Virus record (IMG/VR): IMGVR_UViG_3300050014_000608
Coordinates: 1-25,043 of that record
Length of the DNA stretch: 25,043 nt
Direction: 5' to 3' (one strand)
From: a virus
Shown: in pieces, positions 4,168 to 22,532 of the stretch
Position numbering within the stretch: position 1 is the stretch's first letter
How the letters are laid out: the number at the start of each line of letters is the position of its first letter
Position numbers and translations under genes: made by a program
The notes under the pieces: model-generated
Databases searched by the model: none
Told to the model about the DNA's origin: nothing
The model's input: the letters and a program-made list of their open reading frames with translations, nothing else

Positions 4168-4170
4168 GCC

Positions 4171-4872
4171 ATGACCTTCAAGGGCTACCTCATCGCCGCC
4201 GTCCTGCTGCTCGCGGGCGGCACTGGCCTGGGCTGGTGGGCGCGCGGCGGCAAGAGCCAGCCCGCCGCCCTGGCCCAGGCGGCCCAGCAGGACCAGACCG
4301 GATCGACGGCATACGACGCGGGGGTGCAGCATGGCCAGGAAGCGAAGACCACGGCCCCCGAGGTCGCGAAGGACGAAGCTGCGGTTGCTGACAAGAACGC
4401 AACGGTGGCCCAACTGCAGGCTGAGGTCGCACGACTTCGAAAGCTGCAACCCGGTGCTGTTCGCCCTGCCGGCGCTCCCGGTGCCGCGGCTGCTGACGCT
4501 CTGCCGGTGCCTGTGGGAACGCCTCTGGAGGCGGCCAAGGATCAGCTGATCACCGCCGAGGATGCCGACCGCGGGGCCCTGAACCAGGACCTGGCCGACA
4601 CCAAGACCCAGCTGGGCCAGACCCAGGCCGAGGCCGCCTCGTTCCAGCAGTCCGCCGACGCCTACAAAGCGGAGACCGTCACCCTGCGCAGCGCCATCGT
4701 CCCAGCCCGGCCCACGGCCGCCGGCATCATCTACGGCACCAGCCAGACCATCGGCGCGTTCATTGAACGGGACTTCGGACCCATCCGCGCCGGCGTGGAT
4801 GTGGTTCGCCATGTGCTGCCCGCCGGCCCCGCAACCGTCGACGCCACCGCCCGCGTGGGCTGGCGCTTCTGA
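4171..4872 (+). CDS. membrane-anchored coiled-coil protein, spanin-like candidate
   Basis: This 233-residue protein has an N-terminal transmembrane anchor (residues about 5-24, GYLIAAVLLLAGGTGLGWW). A long Ala/Gln/Glu-rich helical region predicted as coiled coil follows (about 75-95 and 125-175). The C-terminus is about 45 residues with alternating polar and nonpolar residues, finishing DATARVGWRF. The terminal Phe and alternation resemble the last strand of outer-membrane beta barrels. An inner-membrane anchor, periplasmic coiled coil and outer-membrane-like end, set in a lysis cassette, suggest a spanin-like role in disrupting the outer membrane. This is inference; no lipobox partner was found. 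Alternatively it is a membrane-bound structural or lysis regulator. Confidence 0.7.
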   Translation: MTFKGYLIAAVLLLAGGTGLGWWARGGKSQPAALAQAAQQDQTGSTAYDAGVQHGQEAKTTAPEVAKDEAAVADKNATVAQLQAEVARLRKLQPGAVRPAGAPGAAAADALPVPVGTPLEAAKDQLITAEDADRGALNQDLADTKTQLGQTQAEAASFQQSADAYKAETVTLRSAIVPARPTAAGIIYGTSQTIGAFIERDFGPIRAGVDVVRHVLPAGPATVDATARVGWRF

Positions 4873-4882
4873 GGATCATCCC

Positions 4883-5305
4883 ATGCCCGAGATCATCACC
4901 TCCCACCTGACCCACATCTACTGGGCACTCTTCTGCCTCCTCGTGGCCGTGCTGGTCCACTTCTGGCCGACCATCAAGACCTGGTGGGCGGCCCGCAAGG
5001 CCGCAGCTGAAGCTGAGGCGAAGCGAGTCAAGGCGGCGCTGGAGCTGGCGGCCGGGGACGTGGAATCCGTCTACACCCGGATCAAAGGCGACCTGCAGGC
5101 CTATGTTGCCGGGACGGAGGCCAAGATCAAGGCGCTCGAAGCCAAGATCGACGCGCAGGTGAAGGCGGACGAGGCGAAGGTCCAGGCCGCCGCCAGCAAC
5201 GGCCAGGCGCCCCCGGTCGAGCCGCCCCCAGCGCAGGCACCCGTTGCTGAGCTGGAGACCCCGAACCTCGTCCATGGCTGGGTTCCTCCCGTGGCCCAGG
5301 CCTAA
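4883..5305 (+). CDS. single-helix membrane protein with coiled coil, lysis cassette
   Basis: This is a 140-residue protein. The N-terminal segment IYWALFCLLVAVLVHFWP (about residues 12-29) is a membrane helix. It is followed by a strongly charged Ala/Glu/Lys helix (about 35-110), predicted coiled coil, and a Pro-rich tail. The ATG at 4883 is preceded by GAGGA at a good distance; the open frame extends upstream to 4763 but would overlap the previous gene. It resembles phage holin-like or Rz-like proteins in architecture only. Its placement between the spanin-like gene and another one-helix gene suggests cooperation at the membrane during lysis. Confidence 0.75.
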   Translation: MPEIITSHLTHIYWALFCLLVAVLVHFWPTIKTWWAARKAAAEAEAKRVKAALELAAGDVESVYTRIKGDLQAYVAGTEAKIKALEAKIDAQVKADEAKVQAAASNGQAPPVEPPPAQAPVAELETPNLVHGWVPPVAQA

Positions 5306-9309: not shown

Positions 9310-10494
9310 ATGGGTTTACAGACTTTCGTCAATATTTATTCCCCCATCGGCACCGAAGGCGCCAAGGCCTCCAGCAACCCCATCGCCGCGGTCATCGCCG
9401 CCAATGGCGCCTTGGTCGCGGATCCGGTGAACGGCCTGAACGTGGGCCGGTTCGCTTGGGTCAGCGCCCTCGCCACCATCCTGACCAACTACGCGCCGGG
9501 CGGCGTCCCGACCGTTCCCGACGGCTTCATCATGCTGGAGATGCAGGCGAACAACGCCAACCTGCTCGCGCCGATCGGGATCAACATCCAGCCCGGCACC
9601 CAGGTCGCCGCCTACAACCGGGGCGATTTCTTCGCCCGCTGCGGCTTCGCCAATGCGGCGCGCGGGAACAAGGTGTTCGCCAACCTGTTCAGCGGCGCCG
9701 TGATCCCGGGCGTGGCCGGCAGCTTCCCGACCTATCCGAGCGGCGCGCCGACCACCTTCACTGGCTGGATCTCTGCCGCCAGCACGGCCATCCTGACCGT
9801 CACTGCGGTCACTGGCACCCCCCTTGGCGTGGGTACCCTGATCACCGGGCCCGGCGTCCCCATCAATACCCGGATCGCCAGCTTCGGCACCGGCACCGGC
9901 GGCACCGGCACCTACACCCTGTCCACCCCGAACGTCGTGCCGAGCTTCACCGCCCAGGCGTCGCTCTCCACCACGGTCATGACGGTGGTTTCCGCGAACG
10001 GCCCCATCCTGGTCGGCCAGAGCGTCACCGGAACCGGCATCCCCACCGGCACCACCATCTCCTCCTTCGGGACCGGGACGGGCGGCGCGGGAACCTACAA
10101 CCTATCGGCCTCCTGCACCACGGAGACCACCGAGACCGTCACCATCGGCGGCGTGGTTTCCACGACCCTGACCGCCACCCCGGCCGACGGCATCGGCGGC
10201 GCGGTCTGCACCGGCACCACCGCCACCAACGTCCTGACCATCACGGCGATGACCAGCGGCGTCCTGGTGCCTGGCCAGCTGCTCACCGACTCCACCGCCG
10301 GCCTCACTGCGGGGACCTACATCGTCAACCAGCTCAGCGGCACCGTTGGCGGGGTCGGCACCTACACCCTCTCCACCACCCCCGGAACCCTCGGCAGCGG
10401 AACCATCAGTGCTTCCGCCTGGATCGAGACGCCTTATTTCTTCCAGACCCCGGCCAACGTGGGTGAGCTGGCCATCATCGGCACGAGGAATTAA
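9310..10494 (+). CDS. structural cement/plug-like head protein with three inserted repeat modules
   Basis: This 394-residue protein lies between the scaffold and major capsid genes. Residues 1-147 and 368-394 look like one continuous structural-cement protein: MGLQTFVNIY...GIEGD-like N-terminal half, and an ASAWIETPYFFQT...GELAIIGT C-terminus like the ending of DUF2190-type and related capsid-stabilising proteins. Between them lie three copies of a small Gly/Thr-rich module (about 148-208, 213-268 and 299-358) with the pattern LTVT...VG...GTGIP.GT.I.SFGTGTGG.GTY.LS. Such surface additions often decorate the capsid. GGAGGT at 9299-9304 is 5 nt before ATG 9310. The head role is inferred from position and flank similarity. 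Confidence 0.7.
   Translation: MGLQTFVNIYSPIGTEGAKASSNPIAAVIAANGALVADPVNGLNVGRFAWVSALATILTNYAPGGVPTVPDGFIMLEMQANNANLLAPIGINIQPGTQVAAYNRGDFFARCGFANAARGNKVFANLFSGAVIPGVAGSFPTYPSGAPTTFTGWISAASTAILTVTAVTGTPLGVGTLITGPGVPINTRIASFGTGTGGTGTYTLSTPNVVPSFTAQASLSTTVMTVVSANGPILVGQSVTGTGIPTGTTISSFGTGTGGAGTYNLSASCTTETTETVTIGGVVSTTLTATPADGIGGAVCTGTTATNVLTITAMTSGVLVPGQLLTDSTAGLTAGTYIVNQLSGTVGGVGTYTLSTTPGTLGSGTISASAWIETPYFFQTPANVGELAIIGTRN
9751..9933 (+). repeat. inserted beta module, copy 1 (cement protein)
   Basis: This segment encodes residues about 148-208. Key positions are AILTVTAVTG, GVGTLITGPGVP, RIASFGTGTGGTGTYTLS. The DNA contains a run of GGCACC-type hexamers (9896-9918) that could promote copy-number slippage. 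Related copies lie at 9946, 10204, 14025 and 21939. Confidence 0.7.
9946..10113 (+). repeat. inserted beta module, copy 2 (cement protein)
   Basis: This segment encodes residues about 213-268, with TVMTVVSANG, LVGQSVTGTGIP, TTISSFGTGTGGAGTYNLS. It is the copy closest to copy 1 at the protein level, with clear synonymous divergence in the DNA, so the duplication is not recent. Confidence 0.7.
10204..10383 (+). repeat. inserted beta module, copy 3 (cement protein)
   Basis: This segment encodes residues about 299-358: NVLTITAMTSGVLVPGQLL, TAGLTAGTYI, GTVGGVGTYTLS. The end of the unit, GGCACCTACACCCT, is identical to the corresponding end of copy 1 (9907 onward). A spacer of about 30 residues separates it from copy 2. 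Confidence 0.65.
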
Positions 10495-10496
10495 CC

Positions 10497-11615
10497 ATGA
10501 GCCCCCGACCCCTCTACCACAACTCCACCCGCGATATGCTTTTCGACCGGCTGCAGGAGGACTTCGGCATCGTCCTGCCGGACGCCATCACCGAGCAGCG
10601 CCCCGAGTGGGGCCGACGCCTGGACGTGGCCATGGACGCTGCCCGGCGCGAATTCGGCATCGACGTGCGCGGCCGGTTCGGCTTTGACGCCGCCCAGCCC
10701 CTGGCCATCACCTCCAGCAACGCCGGCATCCCCCAGTTCCTCACCACGGTCATCGACCCCAAGATGATCGAGGTCTACACCGCCCCGCTGAACGCCACCA
10801 AGATCGCCCGGGAAGAGCTCAAGGGCGATTGGACGAAGATGATCTGGGAATTCCCGGTCGTGGAGTCCACCGGCAACGTCGTTTCCTATGACGACTACAG
10901 CACCGGCGGCGAGGCCAACTTCCAGGTCAACTGGGTTCCCCGGCAGGCCTACCTCTACCAGACCCAGACCGAATGGGGCGAGCTGGAACTCGAGCGCGCT
11001 GCCCTGGCCAAGATCGACGCCGCCAACCGGAAGAACCTGGCCTCCGCGAAGGTCATGGCGGAATTCCAGAACAACATGTATTTCCTGGGGTTCTCCGGCA
11101 TCCAGAACTACGGGCTGCTCAACGACCCGAACCTGCCGGCCGCCGTCGCCCCCCTGGCTGAGACCGTGGGTTCCAGCACCGTCTACGCCTGGTCCGCCAA
11201 GGATGCCCTGGGCGTCTACGCCGACATCCAGTACCTGGTGCAGCTGCTGATCCAGGCCACCGCCGGCATGGTGACGATGGAAAGCAAGATGAAGCTGGCT
11301 ATGAGCCCCGCGGCCCAGGTCAACCTCACCAAGACCACGCAGTACAACGTGTCGGTCATCGATATGGTCAAGAAGAACTACCCCGGGCTGGAAGTGGTGA
11401 CCGCCGTGCAGTACGCGACCGCCTCCGGGAACCTGGTCCAGCTCATCGCCGACGAACTCAACGGCGAAGACGTGGTGGCCCTCGCCTTCAACCTGAAGCT
11501 GCGCGCCCACGCTGTGGTGCGTGACTCTTCGTCCTTCAAACAGAAGAAGAGCGGCGGCGGCTGGGGTGCCATCTGGTACCAGCCCACCGGCGTTCAGCAG
11601 ATGCTCGGAGTGTAA
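10497..11615 (+). CDS. major capsid protein (DUF2184 type)
   Basis: This 372-residue protein matches the DUF2184 capsid family: an N-terminal extension (residues about 1-60), SNAGIPQFLTTVIDPKMIEV, the NVVSYDDYSTGGEANFQVNW block, an ELERAALAKIDAANRKNLAS helix (spine-helix region of the HK97 fold), NNMYFLGFSG, and GAIWYQPTGVQQMLG at the C-terminus. Hundreds of copies form the icosahedral shell. The ATG at 10497 has GAGG about 9 nt upstream and lies 2 nt after the previous stop. Length is normal for the family. Processing by the upstream protease is possible but no cleavage site is evident. Confidence 0.88.
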   Translation: MSPRPLYHNSTRDMLFDRLQEDFGIVLPDAITEQRPEWGRRLDVAMDAARREFGIDVRGRFGFDAAQPLAITSSNAGIPQFLTTVIDPKMIEVYTAPLNATKIAREELKGDWTKMIWEFPVVESTGNVVSYDDYSTGGEANFQVNWVPRQAYLYQTQTEWGELELERAALAKIDAANRKNLASAKVMAEFQNNMYFLGFSGIQNYGLLNDPNLPAAVAPLAETVGSSTVYAWSAKDALGVYADIQYLVQLLIQATAGMVTMESKMKLAMSPAAQVNLTKTTQYNVSVIDMVKKNYPGLEVVTAVQYATASGNLVQLIADELNGEDVVALAFNLKLRAHAVVRDSSSFKQKKSGGGWGAIWYQPTGVQQMLGV

Positions 11616-11618
11616 GAA

Positions 11619-12014
11619 ATGGCCGAAACCGTCATCGTCTACTGCAAGATCCCCAACGGGTTTCACCTCACGGTGAAGGCCGCTGATGGAGTCGACCACA
11701 CCATCCGCATCAACGGTCCCGTCAACAAGCAGGCCAGCGACGTTCCCGTCGTCTTCGGCCACGGCGCCACCCGGATCCCGAAAGACTTCTGGGACCAGTG
11801 GGTGAAGGAGCACGAGAATTTCGGGCCGGTCGAGAAGGGGCACATCTTCTCGTCCGACAAGCCGGCCTCGGGCAAGGACATGGCCCGGGAGCGCAAGAAC
11901 AACCGCACCGGCCTGGAGGGGCTCGACCCCAAGAAGCCCGGCCACGGCCTGACGCCCGCCGACGAGATGAAGAAGGTGCTCGACAAGCTGCCCTCCCAGG
12001 AAGGCCTGGTGTAG
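11619..12014 (+). CDS. head-tail region hypothetical protein
   Basis: This 131-residue soluble protein starts AETVIVYCKIPNGFHLTV and contains FWDQWVKEHENFGPVEKGHIF, then a charged tail with GLTPADEM. Similar proteins occupy the slot between DUF2184 capsid and DUF4054 connector genes in related phages, but I know of no proven function. The N-terminal 80 residues look like a small beta-rich domain; the basic/acidic tail (KDMARERKNNRTG) may be disordered. GGAG lies 9 nt before the ATG. Confidence 0.75.
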   Translation: MAETVIVYCKIPNGFHLTVKAADGVDHTIRINGPVNKQASDVPVVFGHGATRIPKDFWDQWVKEHENFGPVEKGHIFSSDKPASGKDMARERKNNRTGLEGLDPKKPGHGLTPADEMKKVLDKLPSQEGLV

Positions 12015-12017
12015 CTC

Positions 12018-12443
12018 ATGGGATTCATCGCGTCCTTCGACCCCGTCTACTGGCCCGCGCGCTACCCGGAATTCGCGGGCATCACGACGACCACCGCCCC
12101 CGCTTACTTCGCGGAGGCCGGGCTCTACCTGAACAACACCGGGACAAGCCCGGTTCAGGACGCGCCGACCCAAAGCCTGCTCATGCACATGCTCACCGCC
12201 CACATTGCTGAACTCTACGATGCTTCCAGCCAGCGCGGATCCCAGGCACTGGTTGGGCGCATCGGCGATGCCAGCGAGGGCACCGTCAAGGTCACGGCCT
12301 CCATGGACGACAGCGACCGGGACGCCTGGCTGAACCAGACCAAATACGGCGCGAGCTTCTTGCGCGCAACCCGCAAGTATCGTCGGTTCAGTTACCGGGC
12401 CCCCGGGCATCTGGCGCCCATCTTCATTCCAGGTGGGAACTGA
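12018..12443 (+). CDS. head-tail connector (DUF4054 type)
   Basis: This 141-residue protein matches the DUF4054 pattern: YPEFAGI near the start, AGLYLNNTGTSPV, LLMHMLTAHIAELY, VGRIGDASEGTVKV, and WLNQTKYGASFLRATRKYR. These proteins form the adaptor ring under the portal, comparable in position to HK97 gp6. The gene begins 3 nt after the previous stop. All conserved blocks are present and the length is normal. Confidence 0.85.
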   Translation: MGFIASFDPVYWPARYPEFAGITTTTAPAYFAEAGLYLNNTGTSPVQDAPTQSLLMHMLTAHIAELYDASSQRGSQALVGRIGDASEGTVKVTASMDDSDRDAWLNQTKYGASFLRATRKYRRFSYRAPGHLAPIFIPGGN

Positions 12444-12444
12444 C

Positions 12445-12957
12445 ATGGAATTCACCGGCGGGGAAGCGTTCAAGGCCAAGCTCCAGGAGCTGATGCAGCA
12501 GGCGGGGGAAAACCTCACCCTGCGCATCGGCTTCCTGGAAGGGGCAACCTATCCCGACGGCACCCCCGTGGCCCAGGTGGCGGCCCTGAACGAATACGGC
12601 CACGCCACCCCGGTCGGCAAGCGCGGCATGGGCCCCGCGGCCCGCACCGTCGCCCGGCCCTTCTTCTCTCAGATGCTCGCCGAGAAGTCGCCGGACTGGT
12701 CCCGCCGGCTCGCCAACCTCCACCGTTTCAACAATGGCGACATGGGCAAGGTTATGAAGTCCCTGGGCGAATCCATCGCCCAAGACCTCCAGTTGGAGAT
12801 CATCAACTTCAACGATCCGCCCGACAAGCAGATCACCATCGACCGCAAGGGCTTCAAGGGTGGCGCCCAGGCCACCCTGCAGGACACCAAGGTCATGCTC
12901 CGCGCCGTGGCCTACGAAGTGGACGGGGAGCGATTCCCCGGGCCGGTGCAGTCATGA
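12445..12957 (+). CDS. head-tail joining / tail completion protein (gp10-like)
   Basis: This 170-residue protein contains LRIGFLEGATYPDGTPVAQV, AALNEYGH and ARTVARPFFSQML, then TIDRKGFKGG and LQDTKVMLRAVAYEV. This is the usual set for phage head-tail joining proteins related to HK97 gp10. I chose ATG 12445, which has AGGTGG 8 nt upstream; a GTG at 12433 overlaps that SD and adds only four residues. It ends in an ATGA overlap with the next gene. It would connect the head completion ring to the tail terminator. Confidence 0.75.
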   Translation: MEFTGGEAFKAKLQELMQQAGENLTLRIGFLEGATYPDGTPVAQVAALNEYGHATPVGKRGMGPAARTVARPFFSQMLAEKSPDWSRRLANLHRFNNGDMGKVMKSLGESIAQDLQLEIINFNDPPDKQITIDRKGFKGGAQATLQDTKVMLRAVAYEVDGERFPGPVQS

Positions 12958-13322
12958 ACCTGCATGGCCTCGCCTCCAGCTGCATCGGCGCCGTCAATCC
13001 CGACGTCGAAGCAACCATCAAGACCAGCACCGGCAACACGCCGAACCCGGACGGCACCCTGACGCCCACTTACGCCACCGCCACCGGCCTGGTCAACATC
13101 CAGGCGCTCTCCGGCAAGGACCTCCAGCACCTGAACGGCCTGGGAATCCAGGGCGTCACCCGCAAGGCCTACGTTCGCGGCGCCATCAACGGCATCGTGC
13201 GCGCCTCCCAACAGGGCGGCGACCTGCTGACCCTGCCGGACGGCACGATCTGGCTGGTGACCATCGTCTTCGAATCCTGGCCCGACTGGTCCGCCGTCGG
13301 CCTCACCCAGCAGACCTCCTGA
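12954..13322 (+). CDS. head-tail/tail completion-region protein
   Basis: This 122-residue protein opens MNLHGLASSCIGAVNPDVEA and has STGNTPNPDGTLTPTY, QALSGKDLQHLNGLGIQG and a C-terminal block with WLVTIVFESWPDW. The NLH...VNP, QxLSxxDLQHLxxLxIQG and W.V..V.E.WP.W pattern is a recurrent phage family found at this position; its exact function is not established to my knowledge. The ATG overlaps the previous stop, and the stop overlaps the next ATG by one base. Confidence 0.75.
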   Translation: MNLHGLASSCIGAVNPDVEATIKTSTGNTPNPDGTLTPTYATATGLVNIQALSGKDLQHLNGLGIQGVTRKAYVRGAINGIVRASQQGGDLLTLPDGTIWLVTIVFESWPDWSAVGLTQQTS

Positions 13323-13840
13323 TGACCTACATCCCCTCCATTCCCCTGTCCCAGGCCTTCACCGGCCTGAAGGCCTGGCTCATGGACGCCCTGGGGCTGG
13401 GCACCGCCTACGTGGTCCAGGAGTTGCAGAACCGCGCCTCCGCGCCCGCCGATGGCTACGTCAATATGCTCCACAAGGCACAGAAGCGCATGGGCATGAA
13501 CACGGTCGCCTACAACGGGCCCGGCGAGACGATCACCACCACCAGGCCCATGGACTTCCCGATCCAGGTGGACACCTACGGCGCCTCTGCCGGGGACTGG
13601 GCCGACATCATCGCCACCATGTGGGCCTCCCCGCTGGCCATCGCCTTTCTGGCGTCCTACGGACTGGTCCCGCTCTTCGCCGACGACCCCGTCGAATTGT
13701 CCATCGTCAACGGTGAGGCGCAGTACGAAGAGCGGTGGGTGACAGTGCTCCACATGCAGATCAACCCCGCCCTGGCCGCGCCCATGACGTTCCTGACCCA
13801 GCCCGATCCCACCTTCCTCAACATCCTTACGAAGCCCTAG
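13322..13840 (+). CDS. tail terminator/neck-region protein (LIC_12616-like)
   Basis: This 172-residue protein contains NGYVNML-like DGYVNMLHKAQKRMGMN, a DFPIQVDTYGASAGDWADI core and YEERWVTVLHMQINPAL. The IQVD.YG....DWA...AT..R pattern is typical of small proteins just upstream of DUF3383 sheath genes, thought to cap the tail or join it to the head. The ATG at 13322 shares one base with the upstream stop (TGATG). Its TAG stop supplies the first base of the AGGAGG that drives the sheath gene. Confidence 0.75.
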   Translation: MTYIPSIPLSQAFTGLKAWLMDALGLGTAYVVQELQNRASAPADGYVNMLHKAQKRMGMNTVAYNGPGETITTTRPMDFPIQVDTYGASAGDWADIIATMWASPLAIAFLASYGLVPLFADDPVELSIVNGEAQYEERWVTVLHMQINPALAAPMTFLTQPDPTFLNILTKP

Positions 13841-13844
13841 GAGG
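13839..13844 (+). promoter_or_regulatory. consensus ribosome binding site of the TTG-initiated sheath gene
   Basis: AGGAGG at 13839-13844, 6 nt before TTG 13851. It is a full consensus SD paired with a weak start codon, and it decides this start because no ATG lies in a similar position. Confidence 0.8.
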
Positions 13845-13850
13845 CCGCTC

Positions 13851-15551
13851 TTGTCCATTCCTGTCAAGCAGTTGATCAGCGTGACGCCCAGCGTGAGCAA
13901 CGGCGGCGGCGTCGGCGAGACCCTGAACGGGGTCATCCTCAGCGAGTACCCCTTCCTGCCGGTGGGCACGCCCCTTTCGTTCCCCTCGCTGGCCGCGGTC
14001 CTGGCCTTCTTTGGAAACTACGCCTGCCAGTTCACCGCCACCTGCGTCGGCACCGTCCTGACCGTGACCCAGACCCTTTCCGGGGCCCTGGCGGTGGGCC
14101 AGCAGATCCAGGGCGCCCAGGCCGTCGGCGTCCCGCCCGGGACCGTCATCGCCAGCCTCGGGACCTACAACCCGGCGACCGGCATCGGCACCGTGAACCT
14201 CACCGGGCCCGGGTTCACCCAGGCGGCCAGCTCGCCGATGACCTCGAACTGCCTGGAATACCAGATGGCGGCCATCTACTTCGCCGGATTCACCATCGGC
14301 ACCCAGACGCCCCAGGCCCTGATCTTCAGCCGCTACACCAGCTTCGCCTGCCCCGCGTTCCTGACCGGGGTGGCCATGGGCCTGACCCTGGCCCAGCTCC
14401 AGGCGATCGTCTCCGGCACCCTCAGCATCACGGTGGACGGCACGGTCAAGACCGCGGCCGCCGTCAACCTCTCCGCGGCCACCAGCTTCTCCAACGCCGC
14501 CGCGATCCTCACGACCCAGCTGGGCCTCACCGGGTCCGCAGCCGTGACCTACAACAGCCTGTTCGGCGCGTTCGTGATCACCAGCGGCACCACCGGCGCC
14601 ACCAGCACCATGACCTTCGCCACCGGCACCCTGGCCGCCACCCTCGGCCTGGCCTCCGGTAACGGTGGCACCCTGAGCCAGGGCAGCGCCGCCATGACCC
14701 CCGCGGCCGCCATGACCGCCCTGGTCGCGCAGACCAGCAACTGGGCCGGGTTCTCCACCGCCTTCGAGCCGATCGACACCGACAAGCAGGCCTTCGCCAC
14801 CTGGACCGCCGGATACCTCGCCCAGTTCTACTACGCGCCCTACACCACGGACGCGACCATCAAGGGCGCGCCGGCCAGCTACACCGGCTTCGGCTCCTGG
14901 CTGACCCAGAACGCGGTCCAGGGCACTGCCCTGTTCCTGAGCGCCGCCTCCGCTGCCTTCGACCTGAGCCTCACCGCCAGCACGAACTACGGCGCCTCGA
15001 ACGGCCGCATCGACCACGCCTTCAAGTCCGCCAACGCCGTCATCACCCCGGAGGTCACGGATGCCGTCACCGCCGCGAACGTGGTGGCCAACGGCGGCAA
15101 CTTCTACGGGGCCTATGCCACCGCGGCGACTAACTGGGACATCCTCTACCCCGGGCAGATCTCCGGCACCTTCGGGCAGATCGGCGCCTATGTCGATGCG
15201 ATCTGGCTCAACAGCAACATCCAGCTCGCCGAAATGGAGATGTTCACCGGCTCCAACAGCATGCCCAACGACCCGACCGGCTACGCGCTGATCAAGGCCG
15301 CCTGCAAGTCCCTGTTCGCCCAGGCCATCTTCAACGGCGTGATCCAGACCGGCGTGAACCTGACCTCGACCCAGCAGGCCCTGGCCAACGCCCAGGCCGG
15401 GCTGCCCATCGCCGGGATCCTCGCCTCGGTCGGCTGGTATTTCCAGGTCCTGCCGGCGGCCTCGCCCAAGACTTCGCCGCCCTGCCTGTTCTGGTACACG
15501 GGAGCCTACGGGATCACCAGCCTCAACATCGCCTCCATCGACTTTCAGTAA
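13851..15551 (+). CDS. tail sheath protein (DUF3383 type) with one inserted repeat module
   Basis: This 566-residue protein matches DUF3383, the contractile sheath type of Bcep781/AP22-like phages: IPVKQLISVTPSVSNGGG at the N-terminus, LAFFGN...EYQMAAIYFAGF, the SGTLSITVDG/VNLSAATSFSNAA/FVITSGTTGATS block (about 188-255), TSNWAGFSTAF, and AQLAEMEMF-like handshake regions towards the C-terminus. In relatives, FFG...S.EY is a short junction. Here about 74 residues (59-132) intervene and carry the same module family as the cement protein. The TTG start has AGGAGG at 6 nt. The module probably faces the sheath exterior, since it would otherwise disturb contraction. Confidence 0.85.
   Translation: MSIPVKQLISVTPSVSNGGGVGETLNGVILSEYPFLPVGTPLSFPSLAAVLAFFGNYACQFTATCVGTVLTVTQTLSGALAVGQQIQGAQAVGVPPGTVIASLGTYNPATGIGTVNLTGPGFTQAASSPMTSNCLEYQMAAIYFAGFTIGTQTPQALIFSRYTSFACPAFLTGVAMGLTLAQLQAIVSGTLSITVDGTVKTAAAVNLSAATSFSNAAAILTTQLGLTGSAAVTYNSLFGAFVITSGTTGATSTMTFATGTLAATLGLASGNGGTLSQGSAAMTPAAAMTALVAQTSNWAGFSTAFEPIDTDKQAFATWTAGYLAQFYYAPYTTDATIKGAPASYTGFGSWLTQNAVQGTALFLSAASAAFDLSLTASTNYGASNGRIDHAFKSANAVITPEVTDAVTAANVVANGGNFYGAYATAATNWDILYPGQISGTFGQIGAYVDAIWLNSNIQLAEMEMFTGSNSMPNDPTGYALIKAACKSLFAQAIFNGVIQTGVNLTSTQQALANAQAGLPIAGILASVGWYFQVLPAASPKTSPPCLFWYTGAYGITSLNIASIDFQ
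14025..14246 (+). repeat. inserted beta module, copy 4 (tail sheath)
   Basis: This segment encodes sheath residues about 59-132: TVLTVTQTLSGALAVGQQI, GVPPGTVIASLGTY, GIGTVNLT. It aligns with the cement copies at the LTVT, SGxLxVGQ, PxGTxI and GxGTxxL positions. It lies exactly between two normally adjacent conserved DUF3383 blocks. Confidence 0.65.
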
Positions 15552-15560
15552 GGAGTCACC

Positions 15561-15998
15561 ATGACCCGTTCCCTCACTTCTCTCGATGCAGCGATGATCA
15601 TCACGATCCCGGGCGTCTACCCCGGCGGGATCCAGCTGCAGGGCTGGAAGACCGATGACATCTTCGACCTGGCCGCCATGAAGCCGAACATCACCCGCTT
15701 CGGAGTAGACGGCGTGCTCAGCGCCGGCAAGCAGCTCCAGCCCCGCGTCATGAAGATCCACCTGGAGGCCAGCTCCGAGAGCCAGAAGGTCTTCGACGAC
15801 TGGGCCTCGGCCGAGGCCACCCCCCCGATCGACTCCATCCCCTGCAGCATGACCATCGTCATGAACGCCGCCGGGGAGGAATACACCTGCACCCGGGGCT
15901 TCCTGACCGACTACAAGGACGTCGCGGACGCCAAGAAGGTCCGGGATCCCCTCGCCTACGAGATCACCTTCCAGCTCATCCAGAAGACGAAGGTGTAG
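15561..15998 (+). CDS. tail tube protein (DUF3277-like)
   Basis: This 145-residue protein directly follows the sheath gene, as tail tube proteins do. Recognisable parts are GGIQLQGWKTDDIFDL, ITRFGVDGVLSAG, ASSESQKVFDDW, and a DPLAYEITFQLIQ ending similar to the final strand of DUF3277 and related tube proteins. AAGGAG at 15550-15555 is 5 nt before the ATG, consistent with high expression. Stacked rings of this protein form the channel inside the sheath. Confidence 0.8.
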   Translation: MTRSLTSLDAAMIITIPGVYPGGIQLQGWKTDDIFDLAAMKPNITRFGVDGVLSAGKQLQPRVMKIHLEASSESQKVFDDWASAEATPPIDSIPCSMTIVMNAAGEEYTCTRGFLTDYKDVADAKKVRDPLAYEITFQLIQKTKV

Positions 15999-15999
15999 C

Positions 16000-16500
16000 A
16001 TGCGGAACACTCAGCCATTCACCGTCGAAGCTGCGGGCAGGGACAAGGGAAAAGTCTTCCTCCTGACCGAGATGCCGCCGTTCCAGGCCGAGAAGTGGGC
16101 TGCCCGGGCCTTCCTGGCGCTGCTGGAGTCCGGGGTGCAGATCCCCGAAGAGGTCGTGGCCGCCGGCGTGGAAGGTCTCGCGTCCGAGGCCGGCGTCGCC
16201 GCGATCTTCGCCTCGCTGTTTGGCGGCCTGGGCAAGGTCCGATGGGAGGCACTGGAGCCGCTGCTGGACGAAATGATGACCTGCGTGCGCGTCATGCCGG
16301 ACCCCGAGAAGAATCCGAGGTTTTCGCGGGATCTCAACCCGGCCGCCGACGACATCGAGGAAGTGAAAACCCTGTTCAGCCTCCGGGCCGCCGTGGTGAA
16401 GCTCCACACGGGTTTTTCTCCCGCCGCCGGGCCCTCGACCTCTCCAGCCCCGACGGCGACCCGCGTTTCGCCAATTACGAGAATGTCCCGCCGCGGATAG
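16000..16500 (+). CDS. tail assembly chaperone, zero-frame product
   Basis: This 166-residue protein lies between tube and tape measure genes, the position of lambda gpG. It has FLLTEMPPFQAEKWAARAFL, ALEPLLDEMMTCV, and DDIEEVKTLFSLRAAVVKLH, all typical of chaperones in DUF3383 phages. The last 27 residues after LHTGF are low-complexity Ser/Pro/Thr/Arg, as expected of a tail that is read only when the ribosome does not shift. It would bind the tape measure and recruit tube subunits. An AAGG-type SD precedes the ATG. Confidence 0.8.
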   Translation: MRNTQPFTVEAAGRDKGKVFLLTEMPPFQAEKWAARAFLALLESGVQIPEEVVAAGVEGLASEAGVAAIFASLFGGLGKVRWEALEPLLDEMMTCVRVMPDPEKNPRFSRDLNPAADDIEEVKTLFSLRAAVVKLHTGFSPAAGPSTSPAPTATRVSPITRMSRRG

Positions 16501-16640
16501 GGATCGTCATCTCGCGCGGGTTGGCTACGCCCTTGGAACTGCAAACCGTTTATGGCCTGGAGGATCTCTACGACATGCTCGAAATCATCGCCGTCGACAA
16601 CCATAACGAGCGCGTGGCCTCAGAACGGGGCGCGGAATAA
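16000..16640 (+). CDS. tail assembly chaperone, -1 frameshift fusion (GT-like)
   Basis: Decoding in the zero frame through Phe139 (codon 16414-16416), then -1 from base 16416, gives a 213-residue protein. The 74-residue extension contains DPRFANYENVPPRIGIVIS and ATPLELQTVYGLEDLYDMLE, real-looking protein that has no start or SD of its own in the -1 frame. This is the gpG/gpGT arrangement: a minor fusion binds the tape measure through its extension. The TAA at 16638-16640 shares a base with the tape measure ATG. The slippery site and hairpin are listed separately. Confidence 0.8.
16410..16416 (+). promoter_or_regulatory. -1 frameshift slippery heptamer G GGT TTT
   Basis: Zero-frame codons are ACG GGT TTT TCT, so bases 16410-16416 (GGGTTTT) fit X XXY YYZ. 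The P-site tRNA re-pairs GGT to GGG, and the A-site TTT stays TTT. The site lies where the conserved zero-frame protein ends and the -1 frame begins to look like protein. Confidence 0.8.
16422..16458 (+). promoter_or_regulatory. frameshift-stimulating hairpin
   Basis: CGCCGCCGGG (16422-16431) pairs with CCCGACGGCG (16449-16458): nine G-C pairs and one C-A mismatch, with a 17-nt loop. It starts 5 nt after the slippery heptamer, the usual spacing for a pausing structure. Confidence 0.7.
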
Positions 16641-18277
16641 TGGGAACCGTCCTTGATTGCTTCATGGTCACCTTGGGGCTCGACAATCGAGAGTTCAAGA
16701 AGGGTGCCGAAGACGCAGAAAAGAAATATGAGGAGCTGGTCAAGGCGGCAAAGGCGAATGCCAAGGCGATCGTCGACGCCGCGAAGGGCAAATCCGTGGA
16801 GGAGATCGCCGCCGCCAAGGCCAGCGCCAAGGAAGTTCAAGCCGCCGGTGTGAAGGCGGCCAAGAATGTCAAATCCGCCATGGTGAAGGAGTCCAAGGAG
16901 GCGGCCGACAAGGTCAAAGAACATACCGAGAAAATGAAGGAAAACTTCAAAGAAGTGGCCAAGGGCCTTCTGGAAGTTTTCGGACTCATGGTGGCCGGCG
17001 CCGCCATGGTGGAGTTCGTCAAGGGCACCATGGAAGCCGAGGTCGCAGCCGGGCGCCTGGCCAAGACCCTGAACGTCGACGTTGAGGAGCTGGAGGCCTT
17101 GCAGGGCGCCGTCAAGCGGGTGGGCGGCACCACCGAGGGCTTGGACGCCTCGCTGAAGGGGCTGAACAGCCGCCTGGAGATGATCGCCATTCACGGGCCC
17201 CGCTCGAAGATGGCCCTGCAGGTCTTCGCCGGCCTGGGCATCTCCGAGGTCGCCCTCAAGGGGAAGGACGCCATTGGAGTGCTGAGCCTGTTGGCCGAGA
17301 AGATGCACGGCATGAGCGAGGCCAAGGCTCAGGGCCTGGGCGAGCGCCTGGGGCTGGACGAGGGCACCATCCGGCTCCTGACCCAGGGGAAGGAGGGCAT
17401 GGCCGCCCTGGTCAAACATCAGAAGGAACTGGGCGTTGCCTCTGCCGAGGACGGGGCAAAGGCTGCTGAGTTTCATCATTCCATGCTTGATCTTCAGGAT
17501 TCCGCTTCCACGGTGGGCCGTGAGCTCCTGGGCGTGATGATGCCGGCGTTGATCGGCGTGGCCAAGGCCCTTGGTGGGGTCGCCGCATGGATGTCGGAGC
17601 ATTCCGATGCGGTCAAAGCTGGGATCATCGGTATCGCCACGGCCTTCCTGTCTGTCAATTCCGCCGCCATCCTGATGGGGATCAATGCCGCCATCGCATG
17701 GATCGCCGCCACCTGGCCGCTCGTCCTCCTCGTGGCCGGCATCGGCCTCGTGGCCGCGGGCCTCTACCTCCTGGTGACCCACCTGAAGCAGGTCGGGCAT
17801 TTCTTCAACGAGGTCGCCCTGCACATCGTCTACGGCATGCTCAAGGCCTTCTTCGCGGTTGAGCATGCCGGCGCCCACATGTGGAACGCACTGAAGACGG
17901 CCGCCATGGCTCCGCTGGAATGGATCTGGAACAAGCTCAAGGCCATCGTCGACATCTACAAGCAGGAAGGCAAGTTCCTCTCGGCGATTCTCCACGGCGA
18001 CGTGAAGGGTGCGGTCGGCGCGGTCAAGACGGCGGTGGCCGATGCCGGTTCCGTGGTCGGCCTGACCCCCGCCTATGCCGGCGCGCACGCGGGCATGGCC
18101 CAGCACCCGTCCATCTCCAACAGCCGCTCCAGCACCACCAGCACCAAGGAAACCCACGTCACCATCGGCACCATCAACACCCAGGCGACCGACGCCAAGG
18201 GGTTCGCCGCGGAGCTGCCCGGGGCCATCAAATCCAAGTCCTCCCTCGTGGACATGGCTGACGGGGGGATGAGCTAA
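16640..18277 (+). CDS. tail tape measure protein
   Basis: This is a 545-residue protein. The N-terminus VTLGLDNREFKKG is the common tape measure opening. Residues about 15-105 are a charged Ala/Lys/Glu coiled coil. Hydrophobic segments follow at about 115-130 (LLEVFGLMVAGAAMVEF) and 330-385 (IIGIATAFLSVNSAAILMG, AATWPLVLLVAGIGLVAAGLY), and the tail contains TKETHVTIGTINTQATDAKG. It sets tail length and may pass into the host membrane during ejection. At about 1.5 angstrom per residue it predicts a short tail, of the order of 80 nm. The first 350 bases are less GC-rich than the rest. The next gene starts in the last codon. Confidence 0.88.
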   Translation: MGTVLDCFMVTLGLDNREFKKGAEDAEKKYEELVKAAKANAKAIVDAAKGKSVEEIAAAKASAKEVQAAGVKAAKNVKSAMVKESKEAADKVKEHTEKMKENFKEVAKGLLEVFGLMVAGAAMVEFVKGTMEAEVAAGRLAKTLNVDVEELEALQGAVKRVGGTTEGLDASLKGLNSRLEMIAIHGPRSKMALQVFAGLGISEVALKGKDAIGVLSLLAEKMHGMSEAKAQGLGERLGLDEGTIRLLTQGKEGMAALVKHQKELGVASAEDGAKAAEFHHSMLDLQDSASTVGRELLGVMMPALIGVAKALGGVAAWMSEHSDAVKAGIIGIATAFLSVNSAAILMGINAAIAWIAATWPLVLLVAGIGLVAAGLYLLVTHLKQVGHFFNEVALHIVYGMLKAFFAVEHAGAHMWNALKTAAMAPLEWIWNKLKAIVDIYKQEGKFLSAILHGDVKGAVGAVKTAVADAGSVVGLTPAYAGAHAGMAQHPSISNSRSSTTSTKETHVTIGTINTQATDAKGFAAELPGAIKSKSSLVDMADGGMS

Positions 18278-18798
18278 TGGCGAACGGCTGGGGCGTCTAC
18301 ACCTTGGGGGGGGGCCTCGCCTTCGACGTGGACTCTTGCCTCGATCTCAAGTTCGGAGCCAAGGCCAAGACCTCGGATTTTCCGGTAGAGGAGGGCGCCT
18401 TCGCTAGCTACAACAAGGTGCTGGATCCGTTCACCCCGAAGGTCCGGCTGGTGGTGAAGAGCGCGCCGCGGATCGCCGCGTTCCAGGTGGCGCTCCATGC
18501 GGCCCTGGCGTCCGCGAGCCTCTTCAACATCGTCACCCCCACCATGACCTACCTGAACGTCACCCTGGAGGGCTACGACCACGACCAAACCGCCGAGAAT
18601 GGCGCGCTGAGCATGCTGGTGGTGGACCTGGGGTTCAAGCAGGTCCGCGAGGTGACGCCGGCCTATTCCACCCTCCCGAAGCCCAAGAATCCCAAGAGCG
18701 CCTCCAAACAGGTCGGCGGCAAGGCCCAGCCGCAGAAGCCCACCGGGCCGCCCCCGCTCGCCTGGAACAACGTGGTGTCACGCGCGGAGAACGGCTGA
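18277..18798 (+). CDS. baseplate/tail protein downstream of the tape measure
   Basis: This 173-residue protein has SDFPVEEGAFASYNKV, PKVRLVVKSAPRIAAFQVAL, FNIVTPTMTYLNVTLEGYDH and VVDLGFKQVREVTPAYS, then a Lys/Pro/Gln-rich tail. I recall the same pattern (S.N.V..P......l..l.......l..VTP...Y......hyd..rt...Ga..l.V...... VRV) in proteins right after tape measures of this phage group, thought to belong to the baseplate centre or tube-baseplate junction. Exact role unproven. The start overlaps the tape measure stop by one base. Confidence 0.75.
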   Translation: MANGWGVYTLGGGLAFDVDSCLDLKFGAKAKTSDFPVEEGAFASYNKVLDPFTPKVRLVVKSAPRIAAFQVALHAALASASLFNIVTPTMTYLNVTLEGYDHDQTAENGALSMLVVDLGFKQVREVTPAYSTLPKPKNPKSASKQVGGKAQPQKPTGPPPLAWNNVVSRAENG

Positions 18799-19097
18799 TG
18801 CTCTACTGCGACCTCGCCATCGACGGCAACACCCTTTGGGCCGGCGTCCCCTGCCTGAACTGCGTCCTGATCGATTCATACCTGTATCTGGGATTCGTCG
18901 GGCACTTGGCGTTCACCGATTCCCAGGGCTCTCAGGATCCGGACTACACCGGCATCGGGCCCGGCGGCCGCTACTGGCTGCTCTACTCCCAGGCCGGCCA
19001 GCCCCCCCTTCAGGTTCCGCTCCAGCAACTGGCCTCCCAGCAGCTGGACATCACCCTCGGCGGCCAGAACTGCACCATCTCCATTTATCAACAGTGA
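18798..19097 (+). CDS. small baseplate protein, plug-like candidate
   Basis: This 99-residue protein has DLAIDGNTLWAGVPCLNCVLIDSY-type sequence, YLGFVGHLAFTD, DYTGIGPGGRYWLLY and a C-terminal ITLGGQNCTISIYQQ. The order DxxxxGxxxxxGVP....LI..YLG..G.L.....P.Y..LG...L.. resembles the baseplate plug family described for Pam3-type phages, but similarity is weak by eye. It has four cysteines, unusual for a virion protein of this size. The ATG shares one base with the preceding stop. Confidence 0.6.
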   Translation: MLYCDLAIDGNTLWAGVPCLNCVLIDSYLYLGFVGHLAFTDSQGSQDPDYTGIGPGGRYWLLYSQAGQPPLQVPLQQLASQQLDITLGGQNCTISIYQQ

Positions 19098-19101
19098 CCC
19101 C

Positions 19102-19974
19102 ATGACCCAAGGCTCCAGCTTCAACCAGAAGATCCTCCAGGCCAACTTCGCGCTGACCACGGGGACCTTTGACGGCACGAACAACCAGGTGATCCTCCAG
19201 GGCCTGCGCATGGACGCCGAGATCGACAAGGGGGGGCACCCCAGCAAAAACAAGCTGAAGCTGAAGATCTACGGCATGCGGATGAGCGACATGAACATGC
19301 TCACCACCTTGCCGGCGAAGAGCGCCAAGCCGCTGGCGGTGCACAAGTCCAAGCTGCAGCTGCTGGCGGGCGACACCTTCGGCCTGGCCGTGGCCTTCGC
19401 GGGGGAAATCACCGGCGCCTGGGTCAACTACCAGAGCGCGCCCAACCTGGACTTCAACATCGAGGCGCTGGCGGGCTACTACCCGGCGATCGCCCCGGTG
19501 GCGCCCAAGAGCTTCCAGGGCGGAACCAAGGTGGCCGCGATGATGGCCAGCCTCGCCAGCCAGATGGGCTATGGGTTCGAGAACAACGGCGTCACCTCCA
19601 GCCTGCACAATCCCTACCTGCACGGCCCCGCCATGCAGCAGGCCGCGGCGATCGCGGCCGCTGCGAACATCGAGTTCGGGGTGGACGACGACACCCTGTT
19701 CATCGCCCCCCGCGGCACCGCCCGCAAAGGCACCGCCCCGCTGATCTCCGCGGACACCGGCATGAAGGGCTACCCCATTTTCGACAAGGAGGGGCTCAAG
19801 CTCGTCACCCTCTACAATCCCGCGATCAAGCTGGGCGGCCCGATCATCGTCCAGAGCGCGGTCCCGGTCGCTTGTGGCACCTGGCGCGTGCACGGGCTCA
19901 AGCACCACCTGACCAGCGAGACCCCGGGCGGCCCCTGGGAAACCTCCGTGTCGGCCAGCTGGGCGGGGAACTGA
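19102..19974 (+). CDS. baseplate hub protein (gp27 / gpD-like)
   Basis: This 290-residue protein is placed immediately before the spike gene, where the hub is expected. It has GLRMDAEIDKGGHPSKNKLK, IYGMRMSDMNMLTTL, LDFNIEALAGYYPAIAPVAP, SFQGGTKVAAMMASLASQMG and TPGGPWETSVSASW at the end. SxxGGTxVAxxMxxLAxxMGYxFENNGV and VxxLxHxLxSExPGGPWxTxV resemble phage late control/hub proteins. The hub trimer forms the collar joining the tail tube to the spike. No lysozyme domain is present. Confidence 0.75.
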   Translation: MTQGSSFNQKILQANFALTTGTFDGTNNQVILQGLRMDAEIDKGGHPSKNKLKLKIYGMRMSDMNMLTTLPAKSAKPLAVHKSKLQLLAGDTFGLAVAFAGEITGAWVNYQSAPNLDFNIEALAGYYPAIAPVAPKSFQGGTKVAAMMASLASQMGYGFENNGVTSSLHNPYLHGPAMQQAAAIAAAANIEFGVDDDTLFIAPRGTARKGTAPLISADTGMKGYPIFDKEGLKLVTLYNPAIKLGGPIIVQSAVPVACGTWRVHGLKHHLTSETPGGPWETSVSASWAGN

Positions 19975-19975
19975 C

Positions 19976-20740
19976 ATGGATCAACCCGTCTATCCCCAGA
20001 AGGACCTCAGCAGCGGCAACACCGATTTCAACCAGATGAGCTTCGTCATCCAGCAGGCCATCGCCAAGCTGAACGTGGCCACCCTGGTCCAGGTCGTCGC
20101 GGTCCACCCCGGCGCCGGGCTGCTGGTCGGGTTCGTGGATGTCACCCCCCTGGTCAACCAGGTGGACGGCGGCGGGGCGGCCGTGCCGCACGGGACCATC
20201 TTCGGCGTGCCGTTCTTCCGCGTCCAGGGCGGCGCCAATGCCGTGATCTGCGACCCGGCCGCCGGCGACATCGGCTTCGCCCTGTTCGCCGACCGGGACC
20301 TTTCCAGCGTCAAGTCCACCGGCGCCGTGGCCAACCCCGGCAGCGCCCGCCGATTCGACATGGCCGACGCGCTCTACTTCGGCGGCTGGAACATGGCCGT
20401 GCAGCCCACTGCCTACGTCCAGGTCACCCAGGCCGGCATCAACCTGGTGCTGCCGGGCGGGACCTCCATCGCGCTGACCCCGGGCCAGTGCACCATCAAC
20501 GCCACCGCCACCAAGGTCAACGGCACCCTGGAGGTCTCCGGGGCCGCCACGTTCGACGCCACCGCGACCGTGGCGGGCCTGCTGGGCGTCAACGGTGGAA
20601 TGACCGGCACCGGGGCCAGCGTGACCATGACCGGCGCCTTCACCGCCACCGGCGAGGTCCAGGGCAACGGCAAGAAGCTCAGCACCCACACCCATTCCGG
20701 CGTCACCACTGGCGGCGGCAGCACCGGAGCGCCGAACTGA
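19976..20740 (+). CDS. membrane-piercing tail spike (gp138 / gpV type)
   Basis: This 254-residue protein has an N-terminal OB-fold-like region (about 30-125, with TLVQVVAVHPGAGLLVGFVDV and VICDPAAGDIGFALFADRDL), a bridging segment with FGGWN, then a repetitive beta-helix (about 165-235). The tip contains STHTHSGVTTGGGSTGAPN. The HTH motif at the apex matches the HxH residues that bind iron in the phi92 gp138 and P2 gpV spikes. A trimer would cap the tail and puncture the host outer membrane on contraction. No domain is missing. Confidence 0.87.
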   Translation: MDQPVYPQKDLSSGNTDFNQMSFVIQQAIAKLNVATLVQVVAVHPGAGLLVGFVDVTPLVNQVDGGGAAVPHGTIFGVPFFRVQGGANAVICDPAAGDIGFALFADRDLSSVKSTGAVANPGSARRFDMADALYFGGWNMAVQPTAYVQVTQAGINLVLPGGTSIALTPGQCTINATATKVNGTLEVSGAATFDATATVAGLLGVNGGMTGTGASVTMTGAFTATGEVQGNGKKLSTHTHSGVTTGGGSTGAPN

Positions 20741-20741
20741 T

Positions 20742-21089
20742 ATGAACACGATTCAGCTTTCCCCTGCCTGGGACCTCATGCTCGACGCCAACGGCAACAT
20801 CGCCATGGCCACGGGACCGGAGGCGATCGCCCAGGACGTGGCCAGCGCCATCAGCACGTTCCTCGGCGAGGTCTACTACGACACGACCCAGGGCCTCCCC
20901 TGGATGTCCGAGGTGTTCGGAGAGCAGTTCTCGCCGTCCCTGGTCACCGCGCTCCTGGTGCAGGCCGCGCTCACCGTGCCGGGGGTCGTTTCCGCCCAGG
21001 TGATCAACCTCGCCTTCAAGAACGGGACCGTCACCGGCACCGTCCAGGTCATCGACACCACCGGGGCCTCCCTCGGCGTGGAATTTTAG
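20742..21089 (+). CDS. baseplate wedge protein (gp25 / gpW-like)
   Basis: This 115-residue protein has the compact pattern LSPAWDLMLDANGNIAMATG, IAQDVASAISTFLGEVYYDT, GLPWMSEVFG and a final beta strand region. It starts with the D....G.......g...iaQ.v...l....gE..yd...G.pw pattern common to gp25-like wedge proteins (DUF2634/GPW_gp25 type). It initiates sheath assembly by templating the first sheath ring. The TAG stop at 21087-21089 provides the AGG of the next gene's SD. Confidence 0.85.
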   Translation: MNTIQLSPAWDLMLDANGNIAMATGPEAIAQDVASAISTFLGEVYYDTTQGLPWMSEVFGEQFSPSLVTALLVQAALTVPGVVSAQVINLAFKNGTVTGTVQVIDTTGASLGVEF

Positions 21090-21098
21090 GAGGTCCAG

Positions 21099-22532
21099 GT
21101 GACCAACGTCCCCATTCCAACCCTCGGTCCCACCGGCTTTGTCGCCCCCCAGGAGGCGGCGGTCCTCGCGGGCGTCCAGGCGGACAACAACGCGGCCTTC
21201 GGCGGCGGGCTCAACCCGGGCCTGACCACCCCGCAGGGCCAGCTGGCCAGCTCCACGGCCGCCATCGTGGCCGACTGCAACGCGCAGTTCTTGGCCCTCG
21301 CCTCGCAGATGGATCCGCAGTACGCCCAGGGCCGGAACCAGGATGCGCTGGGGAACATCTACTTCATGACCCGCTTCCCGGCGCTCGGGACCACGGTGCA
21401 GGCCAACTGCATCGGCCTGGCCGGGACGATCATTCCGGGGGGCATCCCCGTGGCCCAGGATGCGGCCGGGAACCTCTACGCCTGCCCGGGCGGGACCATC
21501 GGCGCCTCCGGATCCCTGCCGATGACCTTCAGCAACGTGGCCACCGGCCCGCTCCCCTTCACCGCCCCCCTCACCATCTACCAGACCACGCCCGGGTGGG
21601 ATGCCCTCACCGGGGCGACGCAGACGGCGCCGGGCCAGAACGTGGAAACCACCCAGGCCTTCGAGGCCCGACGCTCGGCCAGCGTGGCATTAAATGCCAG
21701 CCAGAGCAGCGCCTCCGTCCGCGGCGCCGTGCTGGCCTCCGGCGCGGCCCTGGTGCCCCCGCAGGTTCCCAGCAGCGTCTACTGCTACGAGAACGCGACC
21801 AACGCCGCCCTGGTCACCGGAGGGCTCACGCTGCCCCCGAACAGCCTCTATGTGTGCGTGTCCGGCGGTAACCCGGGCGCGATCGCGAACGCCATCTGGA
21901 CGAAGAAAAGCCAGGGCTGCAGCTACTCCCCCAGCGCGATCTTCAACGCCAGCGTCACCGGCCCAGCCCTGACGGTCAATTCCGTGACCTCCGGCGCCCT
22001 GGCCATCGGCCAGACCCTGATCTCCGCCGCGGGCATCCCCTACGTGACCGGCGGCGGCGCCATCGTCACCATCACCGCCGGCAGCGGCACCGCCTGGACC
22101 CTGAGCGGGACGCCCTCCGTCGCCATCACCGGGATCACCGCCTGGTCCGCCAATGTGGTGGTGGTCCCCGATACCGCCTATGCCGCGCCCCAGCCGCTCT
22201 ACAACGTGTTCTATACCGTTCCCTATGCGGTCCCGATCAACATCCAGGTGACCCTGGCGGGCGCGGCCAACCCGCCAAGCAACGCCCTCGCCCTGCTCCA
22301 GGCCAGCACCGGGTTGGCCACGGCCTTCACCGGCGCCGATGGCGGGGCCCCGGTGGCGCAGATCGGCGCGACGGTCTACGGGAGCCGGTTCAACCAGACC
22401 ATCGCCGGGGTCCTGCCGGGCATCCCCATCCTGAGCGTGCTGGTGGGCTCCGGCTCGCCCACCGCTTACAGCCAGGCGCTGAACATCAACCAGATCGCCA
22501 GCCTCGGCACCATCACCCTGGTGCTCGCATGA
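21099..22532 (+). CDS. baseplate protein J with one inserted repeat module
   Basis: This 477-residue protein resembles the baseplate J (gpJ/gp6-like) family: YAQGRNQDALGNIYFMTRFPA near 75-95, FEARRSASVALNASQSSASV near 188-207, SVYCYENATNAAL, IANAIWTKKSQGCSY and VPYAVPINIQVTL. The core is usually continuous between the KK.x.GC.Y segment and V.v.D......P....v.F..P. Here residues about 281-350 intervene and carry the repeat module. The GTG start has AGGAGGT at 21088-21094 just upstream. J forms the wedge dimers that hold the baseplate closed. Confidence 0.85.
   Translation: MTNVPIPTLGPTGFVAPQEAAVLAGVQADNNAAFGGGLNPGLTTPQGQLASSTAAIVADCNAQFLALASQMDPQYAQGRNQDALGNIYFMTRFPALGTTVQANCIGLAGTIIPGGIPVAQDAAGNLYACPGGTIGASGSLPMTFSNVATGPLPFTAPLTIYQTTPGWDALTGATQTAPGQNVETTQAFEARRSASVALNASQSSASVRGAVLASGAALVPPQVPSSVYCYENATNAALVTGGLTLPPNSLYVCVSGGNPGAIANAIWTKKSQGCSYSPSAIFNASVTGPALTVNSVTSGALAIGQTLISAAGIPYVTGGGAIVTITAGSGTAWTLSGTPSVAITGITAWSANVVVVPDTAYAAPQPLYNVFYTVPYAVPINIQVTLAGAANPPSNALALLQASTGLATAFTGADGGAPVAQIGATVYGSRFNQTIAGVLPGIPILSVLVGSGSPTAYSQALNINQIASLGTITLVLA
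21939..22148 (+). repeat. inserted beta module, copy 5 (baseplate J)
   Basis: This segment encodes J residues about 281-350: PALTVNSVTSGALAIGQTL, GIPYVTGGGAI and GSGTAWTLS. It aligns with the sheath and cement copies at LTVx, SGALAxGQ, xxP and the final GxGTxxLS. It lies between two conserved J blocks that are normally close. Confidence 0.65.

Follow-up and report, generated by a model that had tools for sequence, protein, structure and literature searches.

We identified a small, Gly/Thr-rich module of ~62 residues that occurs five times in three unrelated virion proteins of one phage: the capsid cement, the tail sheath and the baseplate wedge protein gpJ. In our interpretation, to which we assign a probability of about 0.6, the module is a promiscuous accessory domain that entered virion-protein loops of environmental tailed phages on many independent occasions. 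It is best read as widely shuffled, accessory and probably exposed, and as an analogue of the Ig-like domains of phages.

The window, i.e., the whole stretch of DNA that was analysed, is a 25,043-base IMG/VR virus contig carrying the structural operon of a contractile-tailed phage. Its genes encode a terminase, a Peptidase M15, the portal (PF06381), a Mu F-like protein, a DUF2213 protease, the cement, the major capsid protein, a DUF4054 protein, the DUF3383 sheath, an E217 gp32-like protein, the tape measure, a gpV-like protein with an apex motif, gpJ, a DUF2612 protein at the gpI position and a tail fibre. The Peptidase M15 gene (PF08291) and small coiled-coil or membrane-like ORFs at 3216–5302, possibly lysis genes, sit between the large terminase and the portal, which is an unusual location. 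The three module-bearing ORFs and their coordinates had been given correctly in the first-pass annotation. The features are as follows (E-values of modules are from a profile HMM built on other host families).

9310..10494, + strand: capsid cement (decorating) protein; the core, residues 1–148 and about 370–394, is interrupted by three tandem modules
9757..9954, + strand: cement module copy 1, residues 150–215, E 2e-14
9946..10143, + strand: cement module copy 2, residues 213–278, E 1.6e-13
10204..10410, + strand: cement module copy 3, residues 299–367, E 7.4e-11
13851..15551, + strand: tail sheath protein (DUF3383, phrog_205), TTG start; PF11863 E 6e-93
14022..14255, + strand: sheath module copy, residues 58–135 (HMM about 58–132), between 'FG' and the next helix, E 7.3e-11
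21099..22532, + strand: baseplate wedge protein gpJ (phrog_6), GTG start; phrog_6 E 7.8e-27
21936..22148, + strand: gpJ module copy, residues about 280–350, E 1.5e-4

The match of the cement to phrog_2122 was limited to residues 1–152 (E 1e-30), and the sheath scored 312.8 bits against PF11863, whose gathering cut-off is 34.9. Smith–Waterman comparison of the window copies placed 7 of 10 pairs above all 1000 shuffles. The weakest pair was cement copy 2 and gpJ, for which 32 of 1000 shuffles scored at least as high. When a profile was built only on the remaining four copies of the window, it missed the gpJ copy, and a cement-only profile missed both the sheath and the gpJ copies. The membership of the gpJ copy is therefore unproven by the window alone, and the proof rests on copies from outside it. 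The outside profile comprised 238 copies from other contigs and contained no cement, sheath or gpJ copy. With it, each of the five copies in the window was recovered (E 2e-14 to 1.5e-4), and no further window ORF matched. As judged from these matches, the five segments share a common ancestry and are members of one domain family in three unrelated virion proteins, as the first-pass annotation had proposed.

Alignment to insert-free relatives also upheld the earlier view that the modules are clean insertions sparing the core, which held for the cement, the sheath and gpJ, and it placed the boundaries at residues 58–135 in the sheath, about 279–351 in gpJ and about 149–369 in the cement. In five insert-free sheaths, window residues 1 or 2 to about 57 and 136–564 aligned (with target residues 2–57 and 60–504), one or two residues replacing the module. 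The insert-free gpJ proteins of three contigs (about 404 residues) aligned with window residues 2–278 and 351–469. The insert-free cement of two further contigs has 166 residues, compared to 394 in the window, and all cement modules map beyond residue 138 of the shorter form. Among 55 gpJ homologues, 37 contained at least one copy and 18 contained none, and the copies occupied five insertion sites, located after residues 139, 233, 274, 341 and 379 of the insert-free gpJ from contig L050. Two insertion sites each were found in the phrog_1876, phrog_1912 and gpI families. Moreover, several proteins that are module-free in the window bear the module elsewhere, namely the DUF4054 protein (one contig), the phrog_1876 and phrog_1912 families (four contigs), gpI (two contigs) and the tail fibre (two contigs). 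These alignments show gain and loss of the module between relatives and several insertion sites per host protein.

The sheath has a second insertion site, between the two halves of its core, which is occupied in five contigs. We also observed a second variable domain at sheath residues about 165–285 ('TVDG...NLSAATSFSNAA...FVITSGTTGATST'), absent from the 383-residue relatives (contigs L026–L029), whose position suggests the flexible domain (residues 91–210) of the Pa193 sheath; in the same five contigs, the module lies within or adjoins this domain. A different repeat-like stretch, '...GLTAGTTYYVLNPTANTFNVSATPGGAAINTT...', occupies tail fibre residues about 341–417 (window 24232–24462). It is common to phrog_4711 and phrog_9370 and is possibly a further shuffled phage module.

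In composition, the module is rich in Gly/Thr/Ser (51%) and poor in charge (2.5%), and it has no Pfam or NCBIfam entry. AlphaFold2 models of the cement (mean pLDDT 73) and the sheath (mean pLDDT 69), built on 17–20 sequences, predicted a six-stranded small β-barrel. The predicted strands span residues 148–154, 161–168, 177–179, 187–192 and 200–205 in cement copy 1, residues 298–305, 308–317, 323–327, 337–344, 350–354 and 361–378 in cement copy 3, and residues 60–66, 69–77, 99–103 and 112–118 in the sheath copy. One strand is common to cement copies 1 and 2 (HMM boundaries 150–215 and 213–278). The predicted strand order was identical in the four modelled copies, three from the cement and one from the sheath, in line with the first-pass annotation. 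The first and last strands of the module probably lie near each other, so that it would slot into a loop and leave the host fold intact. Conservation falls mainly on turn glycines, strand residues and one tyrosine.

Cement copy 2 (model residues 209–281) matched best the decoration protein of phage Bridgette (8eci_1; Z 8.3, 2.4 Å over 69 residues, 30% identity, VIA), so that this type of fold is predicted over the whole module. Below it came the barrels of EF-Tu and eEF1A and the N-terminal barrels of F1-ATPase with Z 6–7, a value within the range of common arrangements. With respect to an Ig sandwich, the best structural matches listed were this decoration protein and the EF-Tu/eEF1A and F1-ATPase barrels, and no Ig-type Pfam family matched any module at E up to 5. 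The host folds were recognised with the insert skipped in the cement, which gave Z 13.9 with Pam3 (8hdt_G), 13.3 with Pa193 (9b40_K), 12.6 with XM1 (7kmx_a) and 12.5 with E217 (8frs_f). The sheath model matched the Pa193 and E217 sheaths with Z about 20–21 (9b42_S of Pa193, Z 21.3). A Foldseek search of the PDB with the whole cement model gave no match with E < 0.001, and a profile search of solved structures gave none. In BFVD, the cement model had its best matches in two collagen-repeat proteins of the giant virus Indivirus ILV1, A0A1V0SDM6 (E 2e-11) and A0A1V0SCQ2 (E 3.5e-11), which could reflect repetitive sequence or a real transfer. The phmmer matches to RecA fusion constructs were composition artefacts, and Pfam matches to FBPase_glpX, DUF7601 and RecA were set aside as falling below their own cut-offs.

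Relatives of the module were collected with a consensus peptide because a conserved stretch is absent and an alignment-based collection scan was unworkable; relatives of the three window proteins were collected too. This sampling is biased toward consensus-like copies, and the IMG/VR contigs in the sample are fragments. In viral contigs, the search gave at least about 600 pattern matches, and 460 of those listed were confirmed; in bacterial genomes, 39 of 597 were. The collected set contains at least 382 module copies in at least 258 ORFs. With the modules masked, the host proteins formed at least 46 clusters and at least 12 recognisable virion families, including the cement, sheath, gpJ, gpI, tail fibre, head decoration (phrog_49), head closure Hc3 (phrog_578), phrog_302, phrog_1876, phrog_1912, phrog_12985, phrog_3287 and a major capsid protein, with several head and neck families among them. 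The major capsid case is an 834-residue protein (contig L079, 4066–6570) in which the module (645–707) overlaps the Phage_capsid_4 region (466–702); BFVD also contains an HK97 capsid protein, A0A6J5SIT1, with 46% identity over 78 columns.

In three bacterial genomes searched whole, 18 of 19 matches fell within one short stretch per genome (all those of two genomes and 7 of 8 in the third, each on a single contig). Within one bacterial class, the module was present in 2 of 240 genomes, one being the genome around which the class was drawn. This clustering and rarity indicate that the module is phage-borne. It is chiefly a phage domain, but outliers occur: one GH5 cellulase from the bacterium Roseicella sp. 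(contig L071, 3160–7359), probably a secreted enzyme, has two modules. A tblastn search of cultured phages with single modules found nothing significant, a weak negative given the BLAST low-complexity filter. No paper in the literature searched, most subscription journals lying outside it, names the module.

Three published accounts bear on where the module would sit. The Pa193 decorating protein forms trimers, with 180 copies on the capsid exterior, and the sheath of that phage is present in 204 copies (PMC11042391); the E217 decorating protein forms a surface protrusion (PMC10329688); and additional sheath domains are located away from the tube, with a proposed role in adhesion or stability (PMC9230969). 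The exposure supposed in the first-pass annotation is supported to this extent, by homology to the solved cement and sheath proteins and by these descriptions. By analogy, the module would face outward on the cement, sheath and baseplate and would be dispensable for assembly. If the window phage has a Pa193-like stoichiometry, its cement and sheath would together carry about 740 modules, and the effect of a low-affinity surface contact would come from hundreds of copies per virion. We propose only tentatively, at slightly less than even odds, that the module is such a low-affinity multivalent contact domain rather than a receptor-binding domain for one specific ligand. Against a contact role, the conserved positions are mostly structural and no ligand site is visible; moreover, the only solved good match, the Bridgette protein, is also compatible with stabilisation. 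As a guess, we rank weak multivalent adhesion first, subunit stabilisation second and a tolerated passenger third.

Stabilisation would mean that the barrels of adjacent subunits, in the cement or the sheath, contact each other and hold the shell together. The Bridgette protein is a capsid decoration dimer that bridges two P-hexon capsomeres (PMC13033339), the cement is itself a stabilising protein, and extra sheath domains have been proposed to cement the tail (PMC9230969). Nevertheless, the presence of the module at the same site varies between relatives, the two sheath sites would require two contact geometries, and the module also occurs in tail fibres, neck proteins and the bacterial GH5 cellulase, where there is no shell to tie. 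We regard this explanation as possible but rather unlikely. Less probable again is a near-neutral passenger, a compact and foldable insert that spread by being tolerated in loops and brings the phage little benefit. The many host proteins and sites, the frequent gain and loss and the lack of conserved functional residues seen are what such a passenger would leave. However, dN/dS was 0.16–0.90 in the window modules and 0.14–0.54 in the rest of their host proteins, i.e., similar or somewhat higher, so that the modules are maintained by purifying selection about as strong as in the rest of the protein, although a folding constraint could mimic part of this signal. In addition, orthologous copies were kept across wide divergence, and the restriction to virion proteins in the whole-genome searches suggests a use.

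The history of the copies gives no support to the first-pass suggestion of a phage that decorated its own virion, with a common ligand as one possible reason. Environmental phage contigs carry the module widely, and its conserved positions offer no recognisable binding site. Both comparisons were available for 161 copies: among the matches listed, the nearest copy belonged to the same host family in a different genome for 153 of them and to a different gene of the same genome for 8. The copies follow the host gene and not the genome, and are thus mostly old residents of their sites. Copies in different host families had a mean identity of 0.47 when they came from one genome and 0.46 when they came from two (Mann–Whitney P 0.10), with a within-genome maximum of 0.77 at the protein level (DNA identities resting on alignments of a few bases were left out). 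Recent spread within one genome is therefore unsupported. The closest cross-family pair among the matches listed, 85% over 61 residues, joins the sheath of L084 (5971–7965) and the cement of L088 (5302–6006), which hints at occasional exchange.

These figures also bear on a further rival, an in-frame mobile DNA element comparable to the Rickettsia palindromic elements. The in-frame insertion at several sites of unrelated genes would suit such an element, and Gly-Thr repeat coding could favour recombination. Nevertheless, recent copies were lacking: near-identical copies in different genes of one genome were not found, similarity within genomes equalled that between them, and the closest cross-family pair was split between two genomes, which makes this origin very improbable. 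Finally, we consider it next to inconceivable that unrelated Gly/Thr-rich stretches merely resemble each other because, despite the low complexity of the module and the weakness of some window pairs, no match remained when all 8,569 ORFs were reversed or shuffled or when the 258 module proteins were shuffled locally, the modelled copies have a common strand order, and the motif is ordered across at least 46 host clusters.

Among phages, promiscuous surface domains are known chiefly in the form of Ig-like folds. We give about even chances to a broader view of the promiscuous accessory domain, in which an unnamed surface domain present in nearly every exposed virion class (major capsid, cement, head closure, neck, sheath, baseplate and fibre) is a second, non-Ig counterpart of the Ig-like domains and covers the virion with hundreds of weak contact sites. 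A second such family, different in fold and with clearly documented insertions and losses at many positions, would offer a natural experiment across capsid, sheath and baseplate, with the module-free relatives as controls. It would likewise resolve 'unknown' and 'tail fiber' annotations that have only this module as their basis, and the loops that house the module show where sheath and baseplate proteins tolerate insertions.

Among known systems, the cement and sheath of the Pseudomonas phages E217 and Pa193 have the host folds of the window proteins. The solved proteins have 211 and 504 residues, whereas the window sheath adds the insert at 58–135 and the window cement adds three modules. The profiles of PHROG 21413 (unknown function) and PHROG 38233 (tail fibre) each contain one module copy; however, these are whole-protein clusters in which the module is neither named nor delimited. 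Residues 6–76 of gp7 from the Arthrobacter phage Bridgette (PDB 8ECI, chain 1) share the predicted fold of cement copy 2, and gp7 has the motif VG.TIT.AGIPAGTTI in common with the module. Unlike the module, gp7 is a free-standing decoration protein of about 126 residues rather than an insert, and it lacks the GTGTGG.GTY hairpin. The link by sequence is weak (phmmer E 0.27; hhalign probability 60% over 24 columns), and its score exceeded 2000 shuffles, though with a composition bias.

The phage Ig-like domains are likewise small β domains borne by proteins of the capsid, sheath and tail; they are exposed, apparently accessory and exchanged widely. The module differs from them in being a predicted small β-barrel of the EF-Tu-domain-2 type, ~62 residues long, and in being inserted in loops in the window's proteins. 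As far as the summary of Fraser et al. (2006) given in PMC9230969 extends, Ig-like domains occur on phage sheath, capsid and tail proteins. A further precedent on phage structural proteins is described in PMC13033339, where mycobacteriophage Douge displays 919 outward-facing Ig-like domains.
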